A DNA stretch of 64,000 nt from Pontiella agarivorans. Lineage in GTDB: Bacteria > Verrucomicrobiota > Kiritimatiellia > Kiritimatiellales > Pontiellaceae. The number at the start of each line of letters is the position of its first letter. Position 1 is the stretch's first letter. A program made the position numbers and the translations under genes. Shown piece after piece: positions 26,334 to 40,271 of the stretch. The notes beneath the pieces were generated by a model, which saw nothing but the letters and a program-made list of their open reading frames with translations, was not told where the DNA came from and ran no database searches. The stretch spans positions 434,001 through 498,000 of the forward strand of contig NZ_JARVCO010000012.1 in assembly GCF_034531395.1 (NCBI RefSeq), read 5' to 3'.

Positions 26334-27950
26334 GTGAGTGGGATACAGACCATAAGCAGAGTGACAAAGGGTCGGGGCCTTCTGGCCGCCGTCGCTGTGC
26401 TCCTGACGGCCGGAAGTATGACCTCCGGGGCGGTCCCGCGGCTGGCCTGTGCCCGGATTGACCGTTTGGTCCAAGATAAACTGGTTGAACTCGATATCCC
26501 GCAGTCGGAAATCTGCACCGATGAAGTTTTTCTTCGACGTGTTTATCTCGACATGATCGGCACGCTTCCGACCGTGAAAGAGGCGGAACAGTTCCTGGCC
26601 AGCAACGCACAGAGTAAGCGTGAAGCCTTAATTGAAGAGTTGTTTGAACGTCCGGAATTTGCCGATTACCGGGCCATGAAGTGGTGCGATCTGCTCCGCG
26701 TGAAGGCCGAATTTCCCAGCAAACTCTGGCCGAATGCCGTACAGGCCTACTATCGTTTTGTCCGTACCGCGCTTTGGAAAAATATGCCCTACGACGAATT
26801 TGCGCGGCTGATGCTCACTTCCAGCGGAAGTAACTTCCGTGCGGCGCCGGTTAATTTCTACCGCGCCATGCCGCAGCGCGAACCCGAACCGATTGCCGGC
26901 ATTGTTGCGCTGACTTTTATGGGCATGCGAACCGATGCCTGGGAGGAAGAGAAACTCAAGGGGATGGCCGCCTTTTTCGGGAAGATCGGATACAAAGGTA
27001 CGGCGGAATGGAAAGAGGAGATTGTATTTCATGATCCCTCCAAAACTTATTGCTATACCGGCACTGCAAAGCCGGTGCCCTGTGTGCTGCCCAATGGAAC
27101 CGCAGTTGAAGTGGGAGACTATGAGGATCCGCGCGTGGCCTTTGCGGACTGGCTGGTCGGTAGTCGCGTGTTTGCAGATAATATGGTCAACCGCATTTGG
27201 TACTGGCTGCTGGGGCGGGGCATCATTCATGAGCCCGATGATATCCGTGCCGGAAATCCGCCGCAGAATCCGGAACTGCTGGCTTTTCTCAGTCAGGAGC
27301 TGGTTTCGAGCGGATATGATCTGCGGCATATTTACCGGATTATTCTGAATTCAAAAACCTATCAGCGCTCATCCATTCACACCGCCGGGAATCTCAATGA
27401 TGAAGAAAATTTTTCGCACTATTCCATTCGGCGGCTCGATGCGGAGGTGCTGATTGACGCCATCTGTCAGATCACGAAAACAACGGAGTCCTATTCTTCC
27501 GATATTCCCGAGCCGTTTACGTTTATTCCGGAAAATGAACGGTCGGTTCGAATTTCCGACGGCAGCATCACCAGTCCTTTTCTGGATCTGTACGGTCGCC
27601 CGTCCCGGGACACGGGATATGTATCTGAACGAAACAACACTCCGTCCGCCGCGCAGAAACTGCACCTGTTGAACTCCTCCCATATTCAGAACAAAATTCT
27701 GAATAATAAAGGACTGTTGGGTATGGAGTACAAAAGGGTCAAAGGAAAAAAGAAACCGCAGGTTCAGTGGAAAAAGCCGGAAGAGGCCATAGAAACTATG
27801 TATCTCACCATTCTTTCACGCTACCCGACGGCAAAGGAAACCAATACGGCAATTGCCTATATTCGGGAAAGCGGACTCAACCGTTATGACGCTTCGGTGG
27901 ATCTGGTCTGGGGGCTGCTCAACAGCAAAGAATTTATTTTCAAGCACTGA
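26334..27950 (+). CDS. DUF1549/DUF1553 secreted protein
   Basis: A 538-residue protein starting at GTG. A signal peptide (~1-32) precedes a DUF1549 domain (~35-240; DEVFLRRVYLDMIGTLPT is its signature) and a DUF1553 domain (~270-525; RVAFADWLV, NRIWYWLLGRGI, PPQNPELLAFLS, and NSKTYQRSS). These domains are abundant in Planctomycetes and Verrucomicrobia but biochemically uncharacterised. Homologues usually carry an N-terminal cytochrome (PSCyt1); this one does not. DUF1501 follows after 18 bp and a PPC protein after that, the standard PVC trio, so the three presumably work together outside the inner membrane. Confidence 0.93.
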   Translation: MSGIQTISRVTKGRGLLAAVAVLLTAGSMTSGAVPRLACARIDRLVQDKLVELDIPQSEICTDEVFLRRVYLDMIGTLPTVKEAEQFLASNAQSKREALIEELFERPEFADYRAMKWCDLLRVKAEFPSKLWPNAVQAYYRFVRTALWKNMPYDEFARLMLTSSGSNFRAAPVNFYRAMPQREPEPIAGIVALTFMGMRTDAWEEEKLKGMAAFFGKIGYKGTAEWKEEIVFHDPSKTYCYTGTAKPVPCVLPNGTAVEVGDYEDPRVAFADWLVGSRVFADNMVNRIWYWLLGRGIIHEPDDIRAGNPPQNPELLAFLSQELVSSGYDLRHIYRIILNSKTYQRSSIHTAGNLNDEENFSHYSIRRLDAEVLIDAICQITKTTESYSSDIPEPFTFIPENERSVRISDGSITSPFLDLYGRPSRDTGYVSERNNTPSAAQKLHLLNSSHIQNKILNNKGLLGMEYKRVKGKKKPQVQWKKPEEAIETMYLTILSRYPTAKETNTAIAYIRESGLNRYDASVDLVWGLLNSKEFIFKH

Positions 27951-27968
27951 GCTTGAAGGAGGCGGGCA

Positions 27969-29300
27969 ATGAAAATGAGAAACGGGTTGGATGCGACACG
28001 TCGCGAAGCCATGGCTCTTGCTGCCACAGGAATGGGCGGTCTGATGCTCGGGGCCCCGTTGGAGGCTTCCGCAATGAAAGACGGCAAGGCAAAAGCTGTC
28101 ATTCAGATCTGGATGTGGGGCGGTCCTTCGCATTTGGATACGTTTGATCCCAAACCGGACGCCGGGGCCGATTACTGCGGGCCCTACACGGCCCCCATCG
28201 AAACCAATGTCAGCGGAATCCGCATCTGTCAGGCGCTGCCGGAATTGGCGAAACACGCGGATAAATATGCCATTATTCGAAGCATGACGCATGGGATTAA
28301 TGCCCATGAAACCGCATCCTACGTCACGCAGACCGGGCGTCCGGTCGGCGGCGATACCTTTCCCTGTGCCGGTGCTGTGGTTTCGCGCTTCAAAGGAGTC
28401 GATGCCGGGTATAAAGGGCTGTTGCCGCCTTACATTGTTCTGACCAAACCTCAAGGCCGTTTCTCGGAGTCGGGCTTTATGGGGCTGCGCTATAAACCGT
28501 TTGCCACCGGCGGCCGGCCGAGCCAGACGCCTTTTACCGTTGAAGGCATTATTCAGAAGGGCATCACTCAGGCACGTCAGGAAAGCCGTCGCGATCTGCT
28601 TGCCGCACTGGATACCTTCGGACGGAGAACTGCGGATAATCCACAGATCAGACACATGAATCTGTGCACTGATCAGGCTTACGAACTGATTCTCGGTGAC
28701 GCCGGGAAAGTGTTCGATATAAAAGATGAGGATCCGAAGCTGCGCGAACGGTATGGCCGCAGCGACTTCGGCGCATCCTGCCTGATTGCCCGCCGGCTTG
28801 TGGAGCAGGGCGTGAAATACATCACCATTAATTATAATTATTCGCCCAATTGGGATTCGCATAAAAAACATTTCGAGGTGATGCGCACCCGTCTGCCGGA
28901 ATTTGATCGCGGTATGGCCACGCTGCTGGATGATCTGCATCAGCGCGGTCTGCTCGATTCCACCATTGTGTGGGCCGGTGGTGAATTCGGTCGCGGTCCG
29001 AAAATTCAGTGGGAAGCCCCGTGGAACGGAGGACGCAGTCACTATGGAAAATGCTTCAGCCACGTGGTCGCCGGCGGCGGATTTCAAGGAGGGCAGGTGG
29101 TTGGCGCCTCGGATGAGACCGGTTCAGAAGTAACGGATCGTCCGGTTTATCCGTGGGATTTGATCGGCAGCATCTATGAACAGCTGGGCATTGACCCGAA
29201 TGCAAAACTGCCGCATCCGCAGGGGATCGATGTCCGTGTGTGTGCAACCGAGGCCGACGGCATTACCATCGGCGGCCGGCTCCGGGAAATCATGTCATGA
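27969..29300 (+). CDS. DUF1501 protein with Tat signal
   Basis: A 443-residue protein whose N-terminus TRREAMALAATGMGGLMLG has the twin arginines, hydrophobic core and A-x-A end of a Tat signal, so it is probably exported folded. The body is a DUF1501 domain of the alkaline-phosphatase/sulfatase superfamily: IQIWMWGGPSHLDTFDPKPDA near residue 40, SMTHGINAHETASYVTQTG, and WAGGEFGRGPKIQ near 335. Family members are widespread in PVC bacteria without an established reaction. The ribosome-binding site is GGAGG at 27958-27962. Its stop codon overlaps the next start (ATGA at 29297-29300), giving a tight operon with DUF1553 and the PPC protein. Confidence 0.93.
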   Translation: MKMRNGLDATRREAMALAATGMGGLMLGAPLEASAMKDGKAKAVIQIWMWGGPSHLDTFDPKPDAGADYCGPYTAPIETNVSGIRICQALPELAKHADKYAIIRSMTHGINAHETASYVTQTGRPVGGDTFPCAGAVVSRFKGVDAGYKGLLPPYIVLTKPQGRFSESGFMGLRYKPFATGGRPSQTPFTVEGIIQKGITQARQESRRDLLAALDTFGRRTADNPQIRHMNLCTDQAYELILGDAGKVFDIKDEDPKLRERYGRSDFGASCLIARRLVEQGVKYITINYNYSPNWDSHKKHFEVMRTRLPEFDRGMATLLDDLHQRGLLDSTIVWAGGEFGRGPKIQWEAPWNGGRSHYGKCFSHVVAGGGFQGGQVVGASDETGSEVTDRPVYPWDLIGSIYEQLGIDPNAKLPHPQGIDVRVCATEADGITIGGRLREIMS

Positions 29301-31630
29301 GCGCCGTTTCCAAAGGTTGGAAAATCGGGTTGGTCCTGCTGTTGGCTGTAGCGGCACAGGCATCGAATGAACCGCACATCGGTTTTGCCTATCCGGCCGG
29401 TGCACAGCAGGGTACTTCCTTTGAGATGCTGATCGGCGGTCAGTATTTCAAGGGAGCAACCAATGTGTTTGTCAGCGGCGAAGGCGTCTCTGTTGAGATT
29501 CAGCAGTTTTCGGTCCGCTATGAGCCGCGGCGGATCAATAATCTTTTCAATAACTATGAAAACACCCGGGCCTCCCTTAAAGAGGCCAGAGAAAAGGGGG
29601 ATGCGGAACAGATCAAAAAACTCCAACAGCGTTTCGATCGGGCGGAGGAGCAGCTGCGGGTGGCCGATGCCCCGCCCGGTGTAGACCGTTTCGACCGCAA
29701 GGCGATGCGGAAGTTTTATGGCTACAATAAGAAGGAACAGTTTAATCCGCAGCTTCAGGACCGTCTGCGCGTACGGGTAACCGTTGCGGAAAATGCACCG
29801 TCCGGCGAGCGCGAGCTGCGCGTTTATACGCCGTCGGGGCTTTCCAATCCGTTCTGCTTTCAGGTCGGTACGCTGGAGGAAGTGAGAGAACACGAACCCA
29901 ACGACGATCACATGAAACCGAATCTCCAGACCGTTCCCGTTCCGTCGGTCATCAATGGTCAGGTGCGGCCCGGCGATATGGACCACTTCCGGTTTCAGGC
30001 GCAAAAAGGCGATTCCATTGTCGTCGATGTAAACGCCCGGCGGATTATTCCCTATCTGGCCGACGCGGTGCCCGGCTGGTTCCAGGCAGTGGTTGCGCTG
30101 TACGACGAGGACGGTAACGAAGTGGCCTATCAGGACGACTATAAATTCAATCCGGACCCGGTGCTGTTTTTTGATGTTCCGGAGACGGGTACCTACACCC
30201 TGTCGATCCGGGATTCGATCTACCGCGGCCGCGAGGATTTTATCTACCGCATCGCCATCGGTGAACTGCCGTTTATCACCTCGATTTTTCCGCTGGGTGC
30301 CCGGAAAGGCGAACGGGTGGATATTGCGCTCACCGGACGTAATCTTCCGAAATCGCGGCTGACTGGAAAACTGCCGGACGACGGAACCGACCTGCGCCAT
30401 GTCTCCGTCCGGAAAGAGGGGTACCGCTCCAACCCGATGCCTTTTGCCATCGGGGAGCTGCCCGAAGCTTTTGAAGCGGAACCGAACAGTTCACCGGCCG
30501 AGGGGGAACCCGTGGAACGGCCGCTGCTGATCAACGGGCGGATTCAGCAGCAGGGCGACCGCGACGTCTACCGTTTTTATGCCGAAGCCGGCGATTCGGT
30601 ATCCGTTGAAGTCATTGCACGCCGCTTGAACTCCCCGCTGGATTCCGTCATCAGTCTCTCGGGACCCGGGCTCGAAAAACCGGTTCGGAACGACGATTAT
30701 GTGGTCAAAGACAAAAGCCACCTCTATCTCGGTGCGGGCCTGGTTACGCACCACGCCGATTCCTATCTCACGCAGAACCTTCCGGAATCCGGAACCTACT
30801 ATGTTGAGATTGCCGATGCTCAGGGTAACGGCGGCCACGATTACGGCTACCGCCTGCGCATCAGCAAAGCCAGCCCCGACTTTTCGTTGCGCATGGAACC
30901 TTCCGGCATGCATATCGGCCCCGGCGGAACCGCCGTTTTCACCGTCAGGGCAAGCCGCAAAGACGGTTTCAGGGAACAGATCACACTTTCGGCGGACGAG
31001 CTTCCCGAAGGATTTGTGATGAGCCGGGCCGAGATTGCAGCCGGTTCGGATCTCGCCCGTTTCACCATCACCGCACCGAAAAAGATGGCCGGAAAACTGG
31101 TCAGTCCGCAGATCATCGGAACCGCGATGATCAACGGCGAAGCCATCGTGCATACGGCGGTTCCTGTCGATGACCAGATGCAGGCCTATCTCTATCGTCA
31201 TCTCGTTCCGGCCCGCGAGCTGGTGCTGGCTCCGGTAGAAAAACGCCCGCCCGTTCTTTTTCATGCAAAAGTCCCCAAATCCGGAATCATTGAGTTGGTC
31301 GCCGGCCGTGAAACCCGCATCAGTTTCGAAGGCACCATTATCGGGAAACAGCGCGGTTACAGCGTCAAACTCGATCATCCGCCCGAAGGATTCTCCACCG
31401 CGAAAAACGGATGGATCGGAAAAAAACGCATCAAAACCAAAAAGAAAGACGGCCGGGATGAATGGCATAAACACGAGGCCTGGGGCTCTATCATGATTGC
31501 GGTCGATGAATCCATCGAACCCGGCACCGAACTCAGTCTCGTGGTCTCCGCCGAAGTTAAACGCGGCCAGGAAAAAATCTACTACCCCGCGCCTGCGATC
31601 CCGGTCAAAGTCGTCGAATCCCGCGACTGA
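29297..31630 (+). CDS. secreted protein with PPC (pre-peptidase C-terminal) domains
   Basis: A 777-residue protein. I start it at 29297, in a 4-bp overlap with the DUF1501 stop and directly at the signal peptide; the frame is open upstream but inside DUF1501. Cleavage is likely after AAQASN (~23). An IPT/Ig-like beta domain (FAYPAGAQQGTSFEMLIGG) is followed by a helical insert (~75-130) and two PPC domains, recognisable by NGQVRPGDMDHFRFQAQKGD (~230) and NGRIQQQGDRDVYRFYA (~415). C-terminal beta domains follow. PPC domains are beta-sandwiches that help secretion or substrate binding. It is the third member of the DUF1553-DUF1501-PPC trio. A copy of the dispersed 15-bp element (29308-29322) lies within its signal-peptide codons. 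Confidence 0.9.
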   Translation: MSAVSKGWKIGLVLLLAVAAQASNEPHIGFAYPAGAQQGTSFEMLIGGQYFKGATNVFVSGEGVSVEIQQFSVRYEPRRINNLFNNYENTRASLKEAREKGDAEQIKKLQQRFDRAEEQLRVADAPPGVDRFDRKAMRKFYGYNKKEQFNPQLQDRLRVRVTVAENAPSGERELRVYTPSGLSNPFCFQVGTLEEVREHEPNDDHMKPNLQTVPVPSVINGQVRPGDMDHFRFQAQKGDSIVVDVNARRIIPYLADAVPGWFQAVVALYDEDGNEVAYQDDYKFNPDPVLFFDVPETGTYTLSIRDSIYRGREDFIYRIAIGELPFITSIFPLGARKGERVDIALTGRNLPKSRLTGKLPDDGTDLRHVSVRKEGYRSNPMPFAIGELPEAFEAEPNSSPAEGEPVERPLLINGRIQQQGDRDVYRFYAEAGDSVSVEVIARRLNSPLDSVISLSGPGLEKPVRNDDYVVKDKSHLYLGAGLVTHHADSYLTQNLPESGTYYVEIADAQGNGGHDYGYRLRISKASPDFSLRMEPSGMHIGPGGTAVFTVRASRKDGFREQITLSADELPEGFVMSRAEIAAGSDLARFTITAPKKMAGKLVSPQIIGTAMINGEAIVHTAVPVDDQMQAYLYRHLVPARELVLAPVEKRPPVLFHAKVPKSGIIELVAGRETRISFEGTIIGKQRGYSVKLDHPPEGFSTAKNGWIGKKRIKTKKKDGRDEWHKHEAWGSIMIAVDESIEPGTELSLVVSAEVKRGQEKIYYPAPAIPVKVVESRD
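29308..29322. repeat. dispersed 15-bp element in signal-peptide codons
   Basis: Perfect copy with centre AAGGT, encoding SKGWK just after the start codon; identical to the copy at 41134 in topB. Confidence 0.8.
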
Positions 31631-32019: not shown

Positions 32020-34749
32020 ATGAATGCAGTAGAAATTGAACAGGCGATCAGTGAACTGGCGGAGCTCCCTTTTGATGCGGCGGAGTTTCCGTATGCGTTT
32101 TTGACGGCCTTTGGAAACAAGGCGACGACGATTAAGCGGCTGCGGGCGGGTTCGACCAATAAATCCGATATCGGCGGGGTACTGCAGACGAATAACATCC
32201 ATTTGAAAATCTGCGAAAACGGGGCGGTTGATGAAACGCTGAAGGCCCTGCGCGAAAGTCCGGCCACGAAAAATGGCAAGGTGAAGTTTATTCTCGCCAC
32301 GGACGGCGAACTGTTCGCGGCGGAAGACCTTAATTCCGGGGATGTGATTTCCTGTGATTATAAAAAATTTCCGGATCATTTCGGCTTTTTTCTGTCGCTG
32401 GCGGGCATCAGCACGGTCCAGCAGATCCGCGAAAGTGCGTTCGATATCAAAGCCACGGGTCGTCTGAACCGCCTGTATGTTCAGTTGCTGAAAGACAACC
32501 CCGACTGGGGCGCGGCGGACAAGCGGACCGAAATGAACCATTTTATGGCGCGGCTGATTTTCTGTTTTTTCGCGGAAGATACCGATATTTTCAGACGCCC
32601 CGACCTGTTTACCGACACGGTGGAGCGCATGAGTGCGTCGGACGCCTCGAACACCCATGAGATTATCCAGGAATTGTTCCGCGCCATGAACACAAAATTT
32701 GAGGAACGCGAGATCGCCGGAATTGCGCGCTGGGCCAGGGAGCTGCCCTATGTCAACGGCGGGCTGTTTTCCGGCAGTATGGCCGTGCCGAAATTCACGC
32801 GCATTGCGCGTTCCTATCTGCTGCACATCGGAAGCCTGAACTGGAAAAAGATCAATCCCGATATTTTCGGGTCGATGATTCAGGCGGTGGCGGACGATGA
32901 AGAGCGCGGACAACTGGGGATGCACTACACCTCGGTGCCGAATATCCTCAAAGTGCTGAATCCGCTCTTTCTGGATGAGCTGCGCGAACAGCTGGCGGCG
33001 GCGGGCGACAATCCCCGTAAACTGATCAATCTGCGTAAAAGACTTGCTAAAATCCGCGTGTTCGATCCCGCCTGCGGCTCCGGTAACTTTCTGGTGATTG
33101 CCTATAAACAGATGCGCGAAATCGAGGCCGAAATCAATCGGCGGCGAAAAGAGCCTGAAAACCGCAGTGTGATTCCGCTCACCAACTTCCGCGGCATTGA
33201 GATCCGCGATTTTTCGGCGGAGATTGCGCGGCTGGCGCTGATTATTGCCGAATACCAATGCGACGTGCTTTATCGCGGCCAGAAAGAGGCCATTCAGGAT
33301 TTTCTGCCGCTGCGACGCGACAACTGGATCACCTGTGCCAATGCGCTGCAGGTTGATTGGTTGAGCATCTGCCCGCCGACCGGAACCGGCGTAAAACACC
33401 GCGCCGACGATTTGTTCCAAACTCCGCTCGATCAGGCCGAAATCGATTTTGAAAACGAGGGCGGTGAAACCTATATCTGCGGCAATCCGCCTTATATTGG
33501 AAGAAGGAATCAAGATAAGAAACAGAAGGCGGATCTAAAAGCGTTGTTAGCTTCCAAAGTTCGTTCGAGCGCGTCCTTGGATTACGTTTTTGGATGGCTG
33601 GAAAAGGCTTCGGACTTCATTGTCCAGCAGGGTGGAGAATTTGCTTTTGTAACAACAAATTCAGTAACACAAGGTACTCAAATTCCAATATATTGGCCGC
33701 ATCTTTTCTCAAAAGGACTCGAAATCACTTTTGCCCATCGCTCGTTTAAATGGTCAAACAACGCTGCTCATAATGCAGGCGTTACGGTTGTTGTTATCGG
33801 AGTTGGTACAACCAGGAAGGCTAAAAAAATATACGATGGAGAACTTGTTCAGGAAGTGGCAGAAATAAATCCGTACCTGTTGTCTGGCTCTGCCGTTGTT
33901 GTAACAACCGCAAGCAAACCAATTTCTCAAGTCCACAGAATGAACTATGGCAATCTACCTGGTGATGGCAATCATCTGTCTTTGTCTCAAAGAGAAAAGG
34001 ATGATCTTCTGCGACAGCATCCTGAGGTTGCAAAGCTTATTCTTCCTCTTTATGGTGCCCAAGAATTCATAAAAGGTCTAAAACGCTATTGCATATGGAT
34101 CGACGATGATGATCTGGAAATGGCACTTCGTGTGCCTGAAATTGCATCCAGAATTGAGAGAGTGAAGCAAACTCGTAAGGACAGCAAAGATCCAAGCTAC
34201 AATGCATTGGCTTCCCGGCCTCATCAATATCGAGACCGTAATCTTGCCGAAAGGCTTACCATTTTAGCACCTCAAGTTTCCTCTGAGTCTCGTGACTATC
34301 TTCCCACAACGGTAATAGAGGGACGAACAGGAACGACGAATCAAGCATTCGCCCTCTACGACGCGCCGCTGTGGAATATGGCGCTGATTGCCTCGCGCAT
34401 TCATCTGGTTTGGATCGCTACCGTTTGCGGGAAAATGAAAACCGATTTTCGCTATTCCAACACGTTGGGGTGGAACACGTTTCCTGTTCCGCCGCTGACG
34501 GAGAAGAACAAGGCGGATCTGACGCGCTGTGCGGAAAATATTCTGTTGGCGCGGGAAGCGCATTTTCCGGCGACGATTGCGGATTTGTATGCGCCCGACA
34601 AAATGCCCGAAAACCTGCGGGCGGCGCATGAGCAGAATGATGAGGTGCTGGAGCGCATCTACATCGGCCGGCGCTTCCGGAATGATACCGAGCGGCTGGA
34701 AAAGCTGTTTGAGCTCTACACGAAGATGACGGAGGGGAAGGATGGGTAA
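32020..34749 (+). CDS. class I SAM-dependent DNA methyltransferase (large, MmeI-like architecture)
   Basis: A 909-residue protein. The SAM-binding motif I, VFDPACGSGNFLVIAY, is at about residues 347-362, and the catalytic NPPY motif of an N6-adenine (gamma-type) methyltransferase is at 488-491. A helical region (~150-345) precedes the catalytic domain, and the part after NPPY should contain target recognition. I see no PD-(D/E)XK motif in the N-terminal 150 residues, so this copy probably only methylates. Codons ~495-775 (33500-34350) are roughly 40-47% GC in most 60-base blocks I counted, against about 60% on either side, suggesting an exchanged recognition domain. It is the first gene of a defence-type cluster with a helicase and a GIY-YIG nuclease downstream. 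Target sequence unknown. Confidence 0.92.
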   Translation: MNAVEIEQAISELAELPFDAAEFPYAFLTAFGNKATTIKRLRAGSTNKSDIGGVLQTNNIHLKICENGAVDETLKALRESPATKNGKVKFILATDGELFAAEDLNSGDVISCDYKKFPDHFGFFLSLAGISTVQQIRESAFDIKATGRLNRLYVQLLKDNPDWGAADKRTEMNHFMARLIFCFFAEDTDIFRRPDLFTDTVERMSASDASNTHEIIQELFRAMNTKFEEREIAGIARWARELPYVNGGLFSGSMAVPKFTRIARSYLLHIGSLNWKKINPDIFGSMIQAVADDEERGQLGMHYTSVPNILKVLNPLFLDELREQLAAAGDNPRKLINLRKRLAKIRVFDPACGSGNFLVIAYKQMREIEAEINRRRKEPENRSVIPLTNFRGIEIRDFSAEIARLALIIAEYQCDVLYRGQKEAIQDFLPLRRDNWITCANALQVDWLSICPPTGTGVKHRADDLFQTPLDQAEIDFENEGGETYICGNPPYIGRRNQDKKQKADLKALLASKVRSSASLDYVFGWLEKASDFIVQQGGEFAFVTTNSVTQGTQIPIYWPHLFSKGLEITFAHRSFKWSNNAAHNAGVTVVVIGVGTTRKAKKIYDGELVQEVAEINPYLLSGSAVVVTTASKPISQVHRMNYGNLPGDGNHLSLSQREKDDLLRQHPEVAKLILPLYGAQEFIKGLKRYCIWIDDDDLEMALRVPEIASRIERVKQTRKDSKDPSYNALASRPHQYRDRNLAERLTILAPQVSSESRDYLPTTVIEGRTGTTNQAFALYDAPLWNMALIASRIHLVWIATVCGKMKTDFRYSNTLGWNTFPVPPLTEKNKADLTRCAENILLAREAHFPATIADLYAPDKMPENLRAAHEQNDEVLERIYIGRRFRNDTERLEKLFELYTKMTEGKDG

Positions 34750-34771
34750 TGCGGAAATCCTGTTCGGCGGG

Positions 34772-34821
34772 GCAGGCTGGAAACCTGCGGTACGATTGCC
34801 GTACCGCCCGCATCCTGCGGG
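34772..34821. repeat. three tandem perfect hairpins
   Basis: Stems of 5, 6 and 6 bp with loops of 7, 7 and 3 nt directly adjoin (34772-34788, 34788-34806, 34807-34821). They could terminate the methyltransferase transcript or be a REP-like element; there is no T tract. Confidence 0.55.
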
Positions 34822-35001
34822 CCCTCGAAACTGCCATGATGGCGGCGACACGTGCGTTTCTCAGGGTTGCCATTCTCTTCGGTCATTGCTTTCGTTTCGA
34901 ACGCCTCGCTGCGCGTCCAGCCTGTTACGCGCAGGGACACAACCCCACTTTAATCTAACGGAATCCGGTACCATTGGATCGTGCAGATCATATAATTCCG
35001 T

Positions 35002-35033
35002 TTTTAATTATGGCGAATTCGCCGTAATTAAAA
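35002..35033. promoter_or_regulatory. 32-bp near-perfect palindrome before KilA-N gene
   Basis: TTTTAATTATGGCGAA and TTCGCCGTAATTAAAA are complementary except for one pair. It lies 18 bp before the KilA-N start codon, between it and the hairpin series, and is a natural operator candidate for a KilA-N or RhuM DNA-binding protein. With a GGCGAA stem it could also fold as RNA. Confidence 0.5.
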
Positions 35034-35051
35034 TCCGGAAAGGAGGGGAGC

Positions 35052-35879
35052 ATGCCTGCAAATAAGAAAATCAATGTGTTGAGCACCGAGGTCAAAGTAA
35101 AAACCACAGACCAAAGTGATTTCATCTGTCTAACCGACATTGCAAAATCAAAAAATCCGGATCATCCCGACGACTTGATTAGAAACTGGCTTAGGAACCG
35201 CAACACGCTGGAACTGCTGGGGATTTGGGAGCAGCTGCATAATCCCGATTTTAACCCCGTCGAATTCGACGGGATTAGAAAACAGGCCGGACTGAACAGT
35301 TTTACACTGACGCCCAAACAATGGATCTCGCTAACGGGTGCGGTTGGGTTATCTTCCAAAGCGGGGCGTTATGGCGGGACCTATGCCCATCAGGATATCG
35401 CCTTTGAGTTTGCATCGTGGGTTTCGGTTGAGTTTAAGCTGTACCTCATTAAAGAATTCCAGCGGCTGAAAGAAGAGGAGCAAAAACAGCTGGGCTGGGA
35501 CGTTAAGCGCCAGCTTACGAAAATCAATTACCGGATTCACACGGATGCGGTGAAGGAAAACCTGATTCCGCCGGAACTGACCGGACAGCAGGTGAGTTTT
35601 GTGTATGCCTCGGAAGCGGATTTGCTGAATATGGCGCTGTTCGGTAAAACGGCGCAGCAGTGGCGGGAAGAACAGCCGGACAAAAAAGGGAATATCCGGG
35701 ACTATGCCAATGTTTCGCAGCTGGTCTGTCTGGCGAATCTTGAAACGCTGAATGCCCATCTGATTCAGCAGGCGTTGCCGCAAGCGGAACGATTAAGGCT
35801 GTTGAACCGCACCGCCATTCAGCAGATGCGGATTCTCACCGGTGATCCTCGCATCAATAAGCTGGAGGGAGAGGCATGA
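35052..35879 (+). CDS. KilA-N domain protein
   Basis: A 275-residue protein with a KilA-N domain in the first ~140 residues (FICLTDIAKSKNPDHPDDLI, NWLRNRNTLELLGIWE, and the GRYGGTYAHQDIAFEFASWVS signature). A helical C-terminal half (~150-275) contains LTGQQVSFVYASEADLLNMALFGKTA. KilA-N is a DNA-binding module first known from phage P1 and common in phage and defence loci. The ribosome-binding site is AGGAGGGGAG at 35041-35050. Its stop codon overlaps the start of a 46-codon gene (ATGA at 35876-35879). A regulatory role in the cluster is plausible but unproven. Confidence 0.88.
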   Translation: MPANKKINVLSTEVKVKTTDQSDFICLTDIAKSKNPDHPDDLIRNWLRNRNTLELLGIWEQLHNPDFNPVEFDGIRKQAGLNSFTLTPKQWISLTGAVGLSSKAGRYGGTYAHQDIAFEFASWVSVEFKLYLIKEFQRLKEEEQKQLGWDVKRQLTKINYRIHTDAVKENLIPPELTGQQVSFVYASEADLLNMALFGKTAQQWREEQPDKKGNIRDYANVSQLVCLANLETLNAHLIQQALPQAERLRLLNRTAIQQMRILTGDPRINKLEGEA

Positions 35880-36016
35880 TGGAGGGGGCGATGGCTGAAT
35901 GGATTCCGGCCGGCTTGAACACGGTACGGAACGTGCGGGGTACGCAGATTGCGGGCGATACATTATGCCTTTTCGACCGCTTCTTCGAAGGACAACGGGG
36001 GTGCGGCAGATTATGA
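35876..36016 (+). CDS. small unknown protein between KilA-N and RhuM genes
   Basis: A 46-residue frame that begins at ATG in a 4-bp ATGA overlap with the KilA-N stop and ends in another ATGA overlap with the RhuM start (36013-36016). Being joined on both sides by coupling overlaps is good evidence that it is translated or that it descends from a translated gene. The peptide has Trp-9 in MAEWIPAGLNTVRNVRG, one basic stretch and a FDRFFEG segment; I recognise no domain. It may be a short protein of its own or only a coupling bridge between its neighbours. Confidence 0.55.
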   Translation: MMEGAMAEWIPAGLNTVRNVRGTQIAGDTLCLFDRFFEGQRGCGRL

Positions 36017-37032
36017 GTGAGTTGATTTTATATACTTCGGATGACGGCGAAACGCGGCTTGATCTGCGGGTTGAAAACGGAACGGTATGGCTGCATCAGC
36101 TTGAAGTTGCCGATTTGTTTCAGACCACGAAGCAGAATGTCAGCCTCCATGCACGGAACATTCTCGAAGAGGGTGAGTTGGAGCCGGAGGCAACTGTCAA
36201 GGAATCCTTGACAGTTCAACAGGAGGGAGCGCGGCAGGTCAAAAGAGTACGCGTTTTCTATAATTTGGATATGATTTTGGCCATTGGGTACCGGGTCCGC
36301 TCATCGCGCGGTACGCAGTTTCGGCAGTGGGCGACGCGTCATTTACGCGAATATTTGGTCAAGGGTTTCGTGATGGATGACGAGCGCCTGAAGAATCCGG
36401 GCGGCTGGGATTATTTTGATGAGCTGCTGGAACGGATTCGGGAAATCCGGGCGTCGGAAAAGCGGTTTTATCAGAAGGTTCGGGATCTGTTTGCGCTGAG
36501 TTCGGATTACCGGATTCGAGAAGAGGAGACGCATTTGTTTTTTGCAGAGGTTCAGAATAAGCTGCTGTATGCCGTGACGGGACATACCGCGGCGGAGCTG
36601 GTTGTTGAACGGGCCGATCCGACTCAGCCGAATATGGCGCTGACGAACTGGAGCGGCTCTCGAGTCCGCAAGCAGGATGTGATTGTGGCTAAGAATTATC
36701 TGTCGGCCGATGAGGTGGATACTCTCAATCGGCTGGTGGTGATTTTTCTGGAACAGGCGGAGCTGCGGGTGAAACAGCAGCAGGAGCTGACACTTGATTT
36801 CTGGCGGGAGAATGTGGATCGCCTGTTGGAGTTTAACGGTCGAGCTGTTCTTGAGGGGACCGGAAAAATCAGCCATGACGATATGAAACGTATTGTGCAC
36901 CGCCGCTATGAATCATTTGATGAAAACCGCCGGTTGGCCGAAGCTAAAGCGGCCGATCTGGACGATTTGAAGGAACTCGAAAAACTGGAACAGCAGCTAA
37001 AGGATAAAGGAAGCAGCGATGAGCACGATTAA
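36013..37032 (+). CDS. RhuM family protein
   Basis: A 339-residue protein of the usual RhuM length. The start at 36013 (MSELILYTSDDG) matches the family start; the frame is open further upstream but there it overlaps the small gene. Signatures are VENGTVWLHQLEVADLFQTTKQNVSLH, YNLDMILAIGYRVRSSRGTQFRQWAT, and YFDELLERIREIRASEKRFYQKVRDLFA. RhuM was named in Salmonella pathogenicity island 3; members are common as passengers of restriction-modification loci and probably bind DNA or nucleic acid through the N-terminal winged region. The last 14 bases overlap the helicase gene, so expression is coupled. Role in this cluster unknown. Confidence 0.9.
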   Translation: MSELILYTSDDGETRLDLRVENGTVWLHQLEVADLFQTTKQNVSLHARNILEEGELEPEATVKESLTVQQEGARQVKRVRVFYNLDMILAIGYRVRSSRGTQFRQWATRHLREYLVKGFVMDDERLKNPGGWDYFDELLERIREIRASEKRFYQKVRDLFALSSDYRIREEETHLFFAEVQNKLLYAVTGHTAAELVVERADPTQPNMALTNWSGSRVRKQDVIVAKNYLSADEVDTLNRLVVIFLEQAELRVKQQQELTLDFWRENVDRLLEFNGRAVLEGTGKISHDDMKRIVHRRYESFDENRRLAEAKAADLDDLKELEKLEQQLKDKGSSDEHD

Positions 37033-39076
37033 AACCGTCCCGTCTGTATCGGTAAATTATGCGAGGACCGGTGCGTCGACGCGTTCCAACGAGCTGGGCA
37101 TGCGGGCGATGCAGGAGCGGGCATATGAAAAGCGCGGGGAGCAGTATCTGCTGATCAAATCGCCGCCGGCTTCGGGCAAGAGCCGGGCGCTGATGTTCAT
37201 TGCGCTCGATAAGCTGCATCATCAGGGGCTGAAAAAGGCGATTATTGCGGTTCCGGAAAAATCGATCGGGGCCAGTTTTGCCAATGAACCGTTGAGTGAG
37301 TTTGGATTCTGGGCGGATTGGGAGGTGGAGCCGAAGTGGAATCTGTGCAATGCACCGACGTCGGAGCAGGGAAAAGTGAAATCGGTCGGGGAATTTCTGG
37401 AGGGCCCGGACCGGGTACTGGTCTGTACGCATGCGACGTTCCGCTTTGCGGTGGATGAATTGGGGTATGAGGCGTTCGATGACTGCCTGCTGGCGATTGA
37501 TGAATTTCATCATGTTTCGGCTAATCCGGACAATAAACTGGGGGCGCATCTGTCGGAGTTTATTATCCGCGATAAGGTGCATATTGTGGCGATGACGGGT
37601 TCCTATTTCCGGGGGGATGCGGTGCCGGTGCTGCTGCCGGAAGATGAAGCGAAATTTGAAACGGCGACCTATACGTATTACGAGCAGCTGAACGGGTATG
37701 AGCATCTGAAAACACTCGATATCGGCTATTATTTTTATTCAGGGGCCTACACGGACGAAATCATGTCGGTTTTGGATCCGGCTGAAAAGACCATCATCCA
37801 TATTCCTAATGTAAATTCCCGGGAGAGCACGAAGGATAAGCATAAAGAGGTGGAACACATTATCGGGGAACTCGGGGAGTGGCTGGGCGAAGATCCGGAG
37901 ACGGGATTCCAACGGGTTAAAACGGCCCGTGGCCGGATATTGAAAATTGCGGAGCTGGTTGATCAGGATAATCAGGCACGGATTCAGCAGAGTCTGCGAA
38001 ATCCGAAAATAAAAACGGACCGGGATTATGTGGATATCATCATTGCGCTGGGCATGGCCAAGGAGGGGTTTGACTGGATCTGGTGTGAACATGCGCTGAC
38101 GGTGGGCTATCGGGCGAGTTTAACCGAAGTGGTTCAGATTATCGGTCGAACCACGCGCGATGCCGAAGGTAAAACGCGGGCGCGGTTCACCAATCTGATT
38201 GCGGAGCCGGATGCTTCTGAGCTGGCGGTGGCGGAAGCGGTGAATGATACGCTTAAAGCGATTGCGGCGAGCCTGCTGATGGAGCAGGTGTTAGCTCCGC
38301 GATTCAATTTCAAGCCGAAAAATCCGGGCAATGGTCCGGAAGAGGGTTTTGATTACGGAGAAGGCGGTTATAAATCCGGAGAGTGTAATGCCGGATATAA
38401 TAAGAATACCGGTGAAATGCAGATCGAAATCAAGGGGCTGGCCGAACCGAAGAGCGAGGAGGCCCAGCGGATTTGCAAAGACGATTTAAACGAGGTCATC
38501 ACGGCGGTCGTTCAGGATAAGCAGACGATTGAACGCGGTCTTTTTGATGAAGAAATGGTTCCGGAAGAGATTACGCAGCTTCGGGTCGGTAAAATTGTCA
38601 GCGAAAAATATCCCGAGCTGGATGCGGAGGATCAGGAGGCCGTGCGACAGCATGCGGTGGCGGCATTGAACCTGACGCAACAGGCAAAGAAAGCGCTTAC
38701 AGATGTGCTGGGAGGGGGGGGCGGTCAGGAGGAGTCGCCCAATACCGCGCTCATTGACGGGGTGCGGAAGTTTGCCATGGATGTTCGTGAGCTGGATGTG
38801 GATTTGATTGACCGGATTAATCCGTTCAGCGAGGCCTATGCCATTATGGCCAAGACCATGAATGAAACGCGTCTAAAAGAGCTCAAGGCCATTATTGCGG
38901 CGAAAAAAATCAATCTTTCAATGGATGAGGCCAGAGAATTAGCCAAACGGGCTCTGAAATTTAAGGTTGAACGGGGCCGCCTGCCGAGCATCACGTCGGC
39001 TGATCCGTGGGAAAAGCGAATGGCAGAGGGAATTGCCTTTTTAGCGAAGAAAAAGGCGGAGGCGGTAAATGGCTAA
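37019..39076 (+). CDS. DEAD/DEAH-like superfamily 2 helicase of defence cluster
   Basis: A 685-residue protein. Motif I is SPPASGKS at residues 48-55, an unusual P-loop with PPAS before GKS; motif II is DEFH at 161-164; motif III is AMTGS near 188; and motif VI is QIIGRTTRDAEGKTRARF near 370. C-terminal to the two RecA folds is a ~280-residue helical region with no nuclease motif. The start overlaps RhuM by 14 bases and the end overlaps the GIY-YIG gene by 8. A run of eight G residues (38714-38721) encodes part of a glycine stretch, a possible slippage site. It most likely moves along or opens DNA for the adjacent nuclease. Confidence 0.92.
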   Translation: MSTIKTVPSVSVNYARTGASTRSNELGMRAMQERAYEKRGEQYLLIKSPPASGKSRALMFIALDKLHHQGLKKAIIAVPEKSIGASFANEPLSEFGFWADWEVEPKWNLCNAPTSEQGKVKSVGEFLEGPDRVLVCTHATFRFAVDELGYEAFDDCLLAIDEFHHVSANPDNKLGAHLSEFIIRDKVHIVAMTGSYFRGDAVPVLLPEDEAKFETATYTYYEQLNGYEHLKTLDIGYYFYSGAYTDEIMSVLDPAEKTIIHIPNVNSRESTKDKHKEVEHIIGELGEWLGEDPETGFQRVKTARGRILKIAELVDQDNQARIQQSLRNPKIKTDRDYVDIIIALGMAKEGFDWIWCEHALTVGYRASLTEVVQIIGRTTRDAEGKTRARFTNLIAEPDASELAVAEAVNDTLKAIAASLLMEQVLAPRFNFKPKNPGNGPEEGFDYGEGGYKSGECNAGYNKNTGEMQIEIKGLAEPKSEEAQRICKDDLNEVITAVVQDKQTIERGLFDEEMVPEEITQLRVGKIVSEKYPELDAEDQEAVRQHAVAALNLTQQAKKALTDVLGGGGGQEESPNTALIDGVRKFAMDVRELDVDLIDRINPFSEAYAIMAKTMNETRLKELKAIIAAKKINLSMDEARELAKRALKFKVERGRLPSITSADPWEKRMAEGIAFLAKKKAEAVNG

Positions 39077-40271
39077 AACGAATAAAAATCAGTTTACCGA
39101 AGAAGATGATGCGTTGCTCGGGGCCTTGGGGGTCGATGTTGAGGCAAAGAAAAAGACCAGGTACACCAAGGAGGAGGAGCGGGTTATTGCGGGATTTGAG
39201 GAAATTCAGCGTTTTGTGGAAGAGTCCGGGCATCCTCCTCAGCATGGAGAAGATCGGGATATTTTCGAACGCCTCTATGCCGTGCGGCTGGATCGTATGA
39301 AGGAGCTGAAAAAATTTCATACACTGCTTTTGCCGATGGATCATCAGGGACTTTTAAGTGCAAAAAAAGAGTGTCCAGAGGAGCCGTTGGATAAACTGAA
39401 CGATGACGAACTGCTCGAGGCATTAGGGGTGGAAACGCCGGTGGGTTCTATTCAGCAGCTGAAGCATGTTCGTTCGAGCAGGGAGATCCGTGCGGCCGAG
39501 GAGATTGCCGGCCGGGAAAAATGTGAAGAGTTTGATGCGTTCAAGCCGCTCTTTGAACAGGTTCGGGAAGAGCTGAAAGCGGATATGCGGCAGATGATCC
39601 GATGCAATGATAAAACGGATGTGAAAGTTGGGGATTGGTTTGTCGTGGATGGACTGACGGCCTATATCGTGAGCGAAGGTGAGGCATTTACTACCGGAGA
39701 GGGCCGGGAAGATCGGCGTTTGCGGGTGATTTTCAGCAATGGAACCGAAAGCGGGATGCTGCGACGTTCGTTTCAGAAACTTTTATGGGAGGATGATACC
39801 GCCCGGCGCATCGTGATTCCTGCCGATATGGGGCCGTTATTCGGAGATCGTGTATGCGAAGAAGATCAGGCTTCAGGTGTAATCTACGTACTTCGCAGCC
39901 AATCAGAACTTCCATACATTGTCGAAAACCGGGAGCTGATTCATAAAATCGGATTCACGACAGGAAGTGTGGAAAAACGGATTGCGAATGCGGTAAATCA
40001 GGCAACCTATCTATTGGCTGAGGTGGAAGTGGTTGCGAGTTTTGAACTTTATAATGTGAATGCGGGCAAACTGGAAAATGTGTTTCATAAACTGTTTTCA
40101 CCCGCCCGCCTTGATATCGAAATCAAAGACCGGTTCGGAAAACCGTTCCGGCCTCGGGAATGGTTTTTAGTGCCTCTTCATATCATTAGAGAAGCCGTGG
40201 ATAAGGTGATTGATGGAACTGTTGCGGATTATAAGTATGATCCCCGAAAGGCCGAATTAATTAAGAGTTAA
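39069..40271 (+). CDS. GIY-YIG nuclease (T5orf172/MUG113-like) of defence cluster
   Basis: A 400-residue protein. The C-terminal third is a GIY-YIG fold of the T5orf172 type: GVIYVLRSQ supplies the GIY strand, HKIGFTTGSVEKRIANA the YIG strand with its arginine, and KLENVFHKLFSPARLDIEI the catalytic glutamate helix. The N-terminal ~270 residues are helical and acidic (FTEEDDALLGALGV; PQHGEDRDIFERLYAVRL) and are probably for protein contacts. The gene overlaps the helicase stop by 8 bases, so the two proteins are made together. With the methyltransferase at 32 kb it would supply the cutting activity of a restriction-like system. Confidence 0.9.
   Translation: MAKTNKNQFTEEDDALLGALGVDVEAKKKTRYTKEEERVIAGFEEIQRFVEESGHPPQHGEDRDIFERLYAVRLDRMKELKKFHTLLLPMDHQGLLSAKKECPEEPLDKLNDDELLEALGVETPVGSIQQLKHVRSSREIRAAEEIAGREKCEEFDAFKPLFEQVREELKADMRQMIRCNDKTDVKVGDWFVVDGLTAYIVSEGEAFTTGEGREDRRLRVIFSNGTESGMLRRSFQKLLWEDDTARRIVIPADMGPLFGDRVCEEDQASGVIYVLRSQSELPYIVENRELIHKIGFTTGSVEKRIANAVNQATYLLAEVEVVASFELYNVNAGKLENVFHKLFSPARLDIEIKDRFGKPFRPREWFLVPLHIIREAVDKVIDGTVADYKYDPRKAELIKS

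Follow-up and report, generated by a model that had tools for sequence, protein, structure and literature searches.

The 64,000-nucleotide stretch of the Pontiella agarivorans genome analyzed here (the window) contains a gene for an MmeI-family DNA methyltransferase, which is followed by two accessory genes and by the genes for a helicase and a putative nuclease (Table 1). All five Pfam domains of MmeI were found in the methyltransferase above their gathering scores (E 7e-17 to 7e-112), and the sole relative in the PDB is the crystal structure of MmeI itself (5hr4, E 1e-131). The 5' part of the gene is conserved, with a mean identity of 69-80% across homologues and of about 90% to L084, the nearest homologue, which is the same gene as L008 and stems from a MAG that carries the same genus code and is labelled Lentisphaerae. 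The block comprising residues 493-778 spans the last part of the methyltransferase domain and the greater part of the target recognition domain (TRD). Upstream of the methyltransferase gene, positions 26334-31630 encode PSCyt2/PSD1 (DUF1549/DUF1553), DUF1501, and a PPC-domain protein, a gene set associated with genomes of the Planctomycetes-Verrucomicrobia group.

Table 1. Genes of the cassette and parts of the methyltransferase gene, with positions in the window
Feature	Position	Strand	Remarks
MmeI-family N6-adenine DNA methyltransferase/specificity protein, DnmA-type, without nuclease residues	32020..34749	+	909 aa
Conserved 5' part, residues 1-487 (N-terminal domain, helical spacer, start of methyltransferase domain)	32020..33480	+	
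Catalytic motif NPPY, residues 489-492	33484..33495	+	Conserved left edge of exchanged block
Exchanged AT-rich recognition block, residues 493-778	33496..34353	+	Breakpoints against L084, GC3, AU tests
Second small divergent patch, residues 804-811	34429..34452	+	Aligns to MmeI 805-810; specifies target positions 4 and 6
Conserved C-terminal domain, residues 828-905	34501..34734	+	PF20467; 92% identity to L084
KilA-N domain protein, accessory	35052..35879	+	PF04383, PADLOC PDC-S22; match in only 1/70 loci
RhuM family protein, accessory	35899..37032	+	PF13310; match in 11/70 loci
DEAD-like helicase/ATPase, YeeB-like, core	37019..39076	+	DEAD E 1e-5, slightly below gathering score
GIY-YIG/T5orf172 putative nuclease, YeeC-like, core	39069..40271	+	PF10544 E 2e-14

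The KilA-N and RhuM genes are optional cargo of the cassette. The distance between the methyltransferase and the helicase gene ranges from about 20 bases to more than 5 kb across loci, and this region therefore looks like a cargo site. In the window (34750-37018), about 300 bases and the RhuM gene separate the methyltransferase, KilA-N, and helicase genes; in L008, the KilA-N gene overlaps the methyltransferase gene, and there is no RhuM gene. A 32-base palindrome with 16-nt arms (94% complementary, no spacer) is located just 5' of the KilA-N gene at 35002-35033 and is a possible operator. The GIY-YIG proteins of the window and of L008 (6431-7621) share only 74% of their amino acids, far less than the 93% and 91% shared by the adjacent KilA-N and helicase proteins, respectively.

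In the original prediction, the gene had been compared with MmeI-like enzymes, but it does not encode a self-contained restriction enzyme of this kind. MmeI has the PD-(D/E)XK residues D70, E80, and K82, and a separate group of relatives keeps this D-E-K set, but equivalents of D70 and K82 are absent from all 107 close homologues. As the nuclease residues are absent and the system is continued by helicase and GIY-YIG genes, the protein is not a Type IIL enzyme. Two further assignments were rejected: the models for PglX of BREX systems scored 26-33 bits against cut-offs of 400-900, and the PADLOC match to DrmMI of DISARM systems was only partial (111 bits).

For DnmA of Bacillus subtilis, a role as an orphan or regulatory methyltransferase without restriction function has been proposed. 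The DnmA-YeeB-YeeC cassette of this organism is considered a restriction relic; it is the only one tested in the literature found and conferred no phage protection, as dnmA, yeeB, and yeeC mutants were unchanged in phage killing or production (PMC9973331). That the window gene is such an orphan is unlikely. Among the 70 loci having enough downstream sequence, the helicase gene has been kept downstream of the methyltransferase gene in all 70 and the GIY-YIG/T5orf172 gene in 68; constant exchange of the recognition segment, as described below, is expected of a defence gene; and homologues in Vibrio crassostreae affect phage sensitivity, as far as cited in PMC9973331.

Exchange of the recognition block in the window gene

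The window protein and its homologue L084 share about 92% of their amino acids in the N-terminal domain, the spacer, the early methyltransferase domain, and the C-terminal domain, but only 42% over residues 494-777, which equals the family average for unrelated alleles. At the DNA level, identity is 0.49 inside codons 493-778 and 0.85 outside, and the transition is abrupt (LLR 183). An alignment of close homologues had been proposed as a check for a sharp drop in identity confined to this segment, and exactly such a drop was found. The exact right edge of the block is not fixable because residues 779-803 are conserved throughout the family. Beyond these residues lies the small divergent patch 804-811, which reads M-K-x-D-x-R in the window protein and L-E-x-R-x-S in L084.

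Flanks and segment have different phylogenies. In the tree of the flanks, the window gene groups with L084 with a support of 100, while in the tree of the segment it groups, likewise with a support of 100, with homologues from Mariprofundus (L003) and Rhizobium (L004), and L084 is placed elsewhere. AU tests reject the grouping of the window gene with L084 on the segment (p 7e-58) as well as its grouping with L003 and L004 on the flanks (p 1e-45). An assembly error fusing two genes is unlikely, as the frame is open in two assemblies and the same pattern recurs in finished Escherichia coli genomes.

The exchanged positions are those expected to contact DNA. In an alignment with MmeI from Methylophilus methylotrophus, with base contacts taken from PMC4833311, the equivalents of the base-contacting residues are residues 495-497, 643, 646, 724, 738, 739, 752, 753, 774, 775, 806, 807, 809, and 811 of the window protein, all of which fall in block 493-778 or in patch 804-811. 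The predicted exchange of the recognition segment is thus strongly supported by an identity drop restricted to the segment, by conflicting flank and segment trees, and by the location of the DNA-contact positions inside the block; on these sequence comparisons, recognition-domain exchange in the window methyltransferase can be regarded as well supported. The exchange is assigned to the pair formed by the window gene and L084, and either member may be the changed gene. The nearest segment relatives share only 66% of their amino acids with the window segment and are too distant for naming a donor or dating the event.

Base composition of the recognition block

The GC content of the window gene, otherwise about 0.55, is only 0.43-0.45 from about 33450 to about 34300 and is back up by about 34450. 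This drop is confined to third codon positions, at which GC (GC3) decreases from 0.675 to 0.349 in the segment; positions 1 and 2 remain steady, which rules out amino-acid make-up as the cause. The best two-breakpoint fit of GC3 places the segment at codons 489-776 (nucleotides 33484-34347) with an LLR of 45.5, compared with at most 12.1 in 40 shuffles. The segment GC3 is below the minimum of 0.408 found in 284-codon windows of 182 other genes (each 300 aa or longer) from the window and a further 400 kb of its contig, and the within-gene drop of 0.326 compares with a largest value of 0.107 in the 42 genes that reach 600 aa or more. Sliding GC and the GC3 fit confirm the fall in GC after the NPPY motif that had been noticed by eye, and the limits proposed for it, 33500-34350, lie within 16 bases of the fitted breakpoints. 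The baseline of 60% given with them was slightly too high.

The AT-richness was originally taken as a sign of exchange; read in this way, the segment would have come recently from an AT-rich donor and would still lack adaptation to its new host. Some support for this comes from the window segment itself, whose GC3 is lower than expected for the family (z = -1.9, the third lowest value among 100), so that it may have arrived relatively recently. The family as a whole makes such an import unlikely: the GC3 dip is present in 99% of 101 homologues, and segment GC3 correlates with the GC3 of the host flanks (r = 0.73, slope about 0.6-0.7) but not with that of the closest segment relative from a different host (r = 0.09). 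Even where flank GC3 is below 0.45, the segment is still lower on average (mean -0.07). A fixed donor pool cannot produce a dip that persists in low-GC hosts, which rules out a common AT-rich pool; a single pool would also need a GC3 near 0.15 to yield the fitted line.

A dip that tracks the host throughout the family could also reflect the codon usage of the encoded domain and be independent of exchange, for instance if translation is slowed at a domain boundary. This is improbable in view of three observations. The edges of the dip match the exchange breakpoints. GC3 is low in conserved bins inside the block (541-600) but not in variable bins outside (61-90, 211-240), a comparison that likewise rules out that the dip is due to low conservation. 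Finally, the dip also occurs in the recognition domains of Type I HsdS proteins, at other places in another gene. These domains have a fold unrelated to that of the DnmA/MmeI segment, and in 25 of 27 loci from the same phylum (L189-L218) their GC3 is below that of neighbouring open frames. Slope and intercept are nearly the same, with 0.69 and 0.06 for HsdS and 0.67 and 0.05 for the DnmA/MmeI segment.

Low GC3 is therefore a standing property of such modules and no mark of fresh import, and recognition modules that can be exchanged may be AT-shifted in general. The exchange reading is right, but for reasons other than the composition by which it had been suggested: the dip occurs in nearly all homologues, follows the host, and appears in HsdS as well. 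The same AT-rich segment in all relatives had been named as an observation that would speak against exchange; an AT-rich segment does exist family-wide, but it is not the same segment. In general, an AT-rich recognition domain in a GC-richer gene is normal and neither dates nor proves an import.

As candidate causes of the AT shift, the modules may escape GC-biased gene conversion, codon selection on them may be relaxed, or new modules may flow in steadily and adapt in part. One specific and rather doubtful version is that exchanged modules settle below the synonymous GC of their flanks while tracking the host because divergent segments cannot pair and so escape the GC-biased gene conversion that lifts the flanks. 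If this were true, such genes would offer an experiment of nature, set within single genes, on how biased gene conversion acts in bacteria. The AT shift of the modules across hosts of every composition is a question that these genes make testable.

Exchange across the family

Among the 107 homologues (5671 pairs), there is almost no correlation between the identity of the flanks and that of the segment (r = 0.10). Mean segment identity stays near 0.475 over all flank bins up to 0.96, for flanks that are 60% alike as well as for those that are 95% alike, and only genes with near-identical flanks (>96%) tend to retain the same segment. The cassette is spread over many phyla and occurs in at least 89 of 5426 complete E. 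coli genomes. Several alleles in E. coli strains differ only in the segment, with downstream genes that are still 96-98% identical; in the pair L138 and L142, for instance, identity is 94.5% for the flanks, 48.6% for the segment, 97% for the helicase, and 96% for the GIY-YIG protein. Conversely, distant hosts have modules in common: a Xanthomonas/Stutzerimonas pair shares 80% in the segment and 77% in the flanks, and the respective values are 0.76 and 0.77 for Phenylobacterium L013 and E. coli L139 and 0.87 and 0.83 for the Bradyrhizobium-like pair L034/L037.

In 25 close pairs, nine left breakpoints are located at codons 491-496, just past the NPPY motif, five at 585-600 near the methyltransferase/TRD junction, and ten at 437-477. 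Right breakpoints are spread from 773 to about 832, with two beyond. That the segment merely evolves fast in place, by diversifying selection on a recognition domain that is variable by nature and in all comparisons the least conserved part of the gene, is extremely improbable, as segment identity would then rise with flank identity, which it does not below 96%, as segments of distant hosts are as similar as their flanks, and as the AU tests reject the vertical topology and the conflicting trees have sharp, shared breakpoints.

A close match to the donor segment was found neither in plasmids (best 49% aa) nor in 388 genomes of the phylum (best 45%), and the best matches in a wider search of genome contigs, from Mariprofundus and Rhizobium, reached about 65%. 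A phage search with the whole protein returned just eight distant records. No silent recognition cassettes were found in the same genome, which is 97% complete; its one other MmeI_TRD match is distant (48.6 bits, in a 1183-aa frame on a different contig). Without alternative recognition cassettes in the same genome, the locus does not fit a phase-variable shufflon or silent-cassette system. The same-genus genome G012 has at least three MmeI-family genes (contigs C117, C43, C72), two of which are DnmA-type with differing recognition segments. Two truncated methyltransferase copies from different genomes, L107 and G032:C39:5243-6163, both stop at about residue 303-315, before the catalytic motifs.

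Predicted targets, proposed working, and known systems

The contact residues form 66 combinations among 100 homologues. In the MmeI code (PMC4833311), a K/D pair as in K807/D809 specifies G:C at target position 6 and an E/R pair C:G. Applied to the two proteins by analogy, this code predicts G for the window enzyme and C for the E/R pair of L084 at position 6. At position 4, R811 together with the bulky Q775 in the window enzyme and the S/R combination in L084 likewise predict G and C, respectively, and the R/D pair of L084 points to G at position 3. With the methylated A between positions 4 and 6, the predicted m6A motif would end in G-A-G for the window enzyme, for which the assignment covers these last positions, and in C-A-C for L084. 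Because of these differing contact residues, the two enzymes are predicted to mark different sequences. By this code, which was established on MmeI itself, the exchange would very probably have altered the methylated site and hence which DNA counts as self.

Taken together, positions 33496-34353 and the patch at 34429-34452 very probably represent an exchangeable DNA-recognition module of a three-gene DnmA-YeeB-YeeC-type restriction or defence cassette, which is replaced by recombination between conserved flanks. Presumably, homologous recombination would take place between the strongly conserved flanks, on the left mostly just past the NPPY motif and on the right at about residues 775-830, and a module from another lineage would replace the resident one, while the catalytic core remains in place, as do the helicase and GIY-YIG partners. 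The methyltransferase is then expected to mark a short non-palindromic site on one of its strands; sites lacking the mark would be recognized via the same module and passed to the helicase and GIY-YIG partners. As one module sets the methylated site and presumably also the attacked site, a single recombination event would switch both.

In this way, a widespread and little-studied defence cassette would change its presumed target via one 860-base module with sharp breakpoints, while its enzymes remain fixed, and the exchange yields testable motif predictions. The principle of exchange is already known from Type I and Type III systems. The parts worth following are its family-wide quantification in a cassette of the DnmA type and the finding that exchanged recognition modules have a standing AT shift.

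With MmeI and other Type IIL enzymes (PMC4833311), the window protein shares the five-domain architecture and the alignable recognition residues, but it lacks the PD-(D/E)XK residues, and helicase and nuclease are encoded by separate genes. The likeness to DnmA-YeeB-YeeC of B. subtilis (PMC9973331, PMC7261158) is based on gene arrangement and on domains as described for the B. subtilis proteins: a nuclease-less MmeI-like methyltransferase comes first, genes for a superfamily II helicase and for a T5orf172/GIY-YIG protein follow, and the cassette is located on mobile DNA. In contrast to B. subtilis, KilA-N and RhuM genes are inserted in the window. A description of recognition-module exchange in DnmA-YeeB-YeeC was found in neither of these two publications. 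Exchange or movement of recognition domains is well known for HsdS of Type I and Mod of Type III systems (PMC3077401, PMC3983042), where conserved flanks also recombine, the recognition domain is swapped, and the methylome changes. In contrast to these systems, a single recognition domain within a fused methyltransferase/specificity protein is concerned here, the block often starts within the catalytic domain at the NPPY motif, and the exchange occurs between unrelated genomes and not between two sites within one gene.
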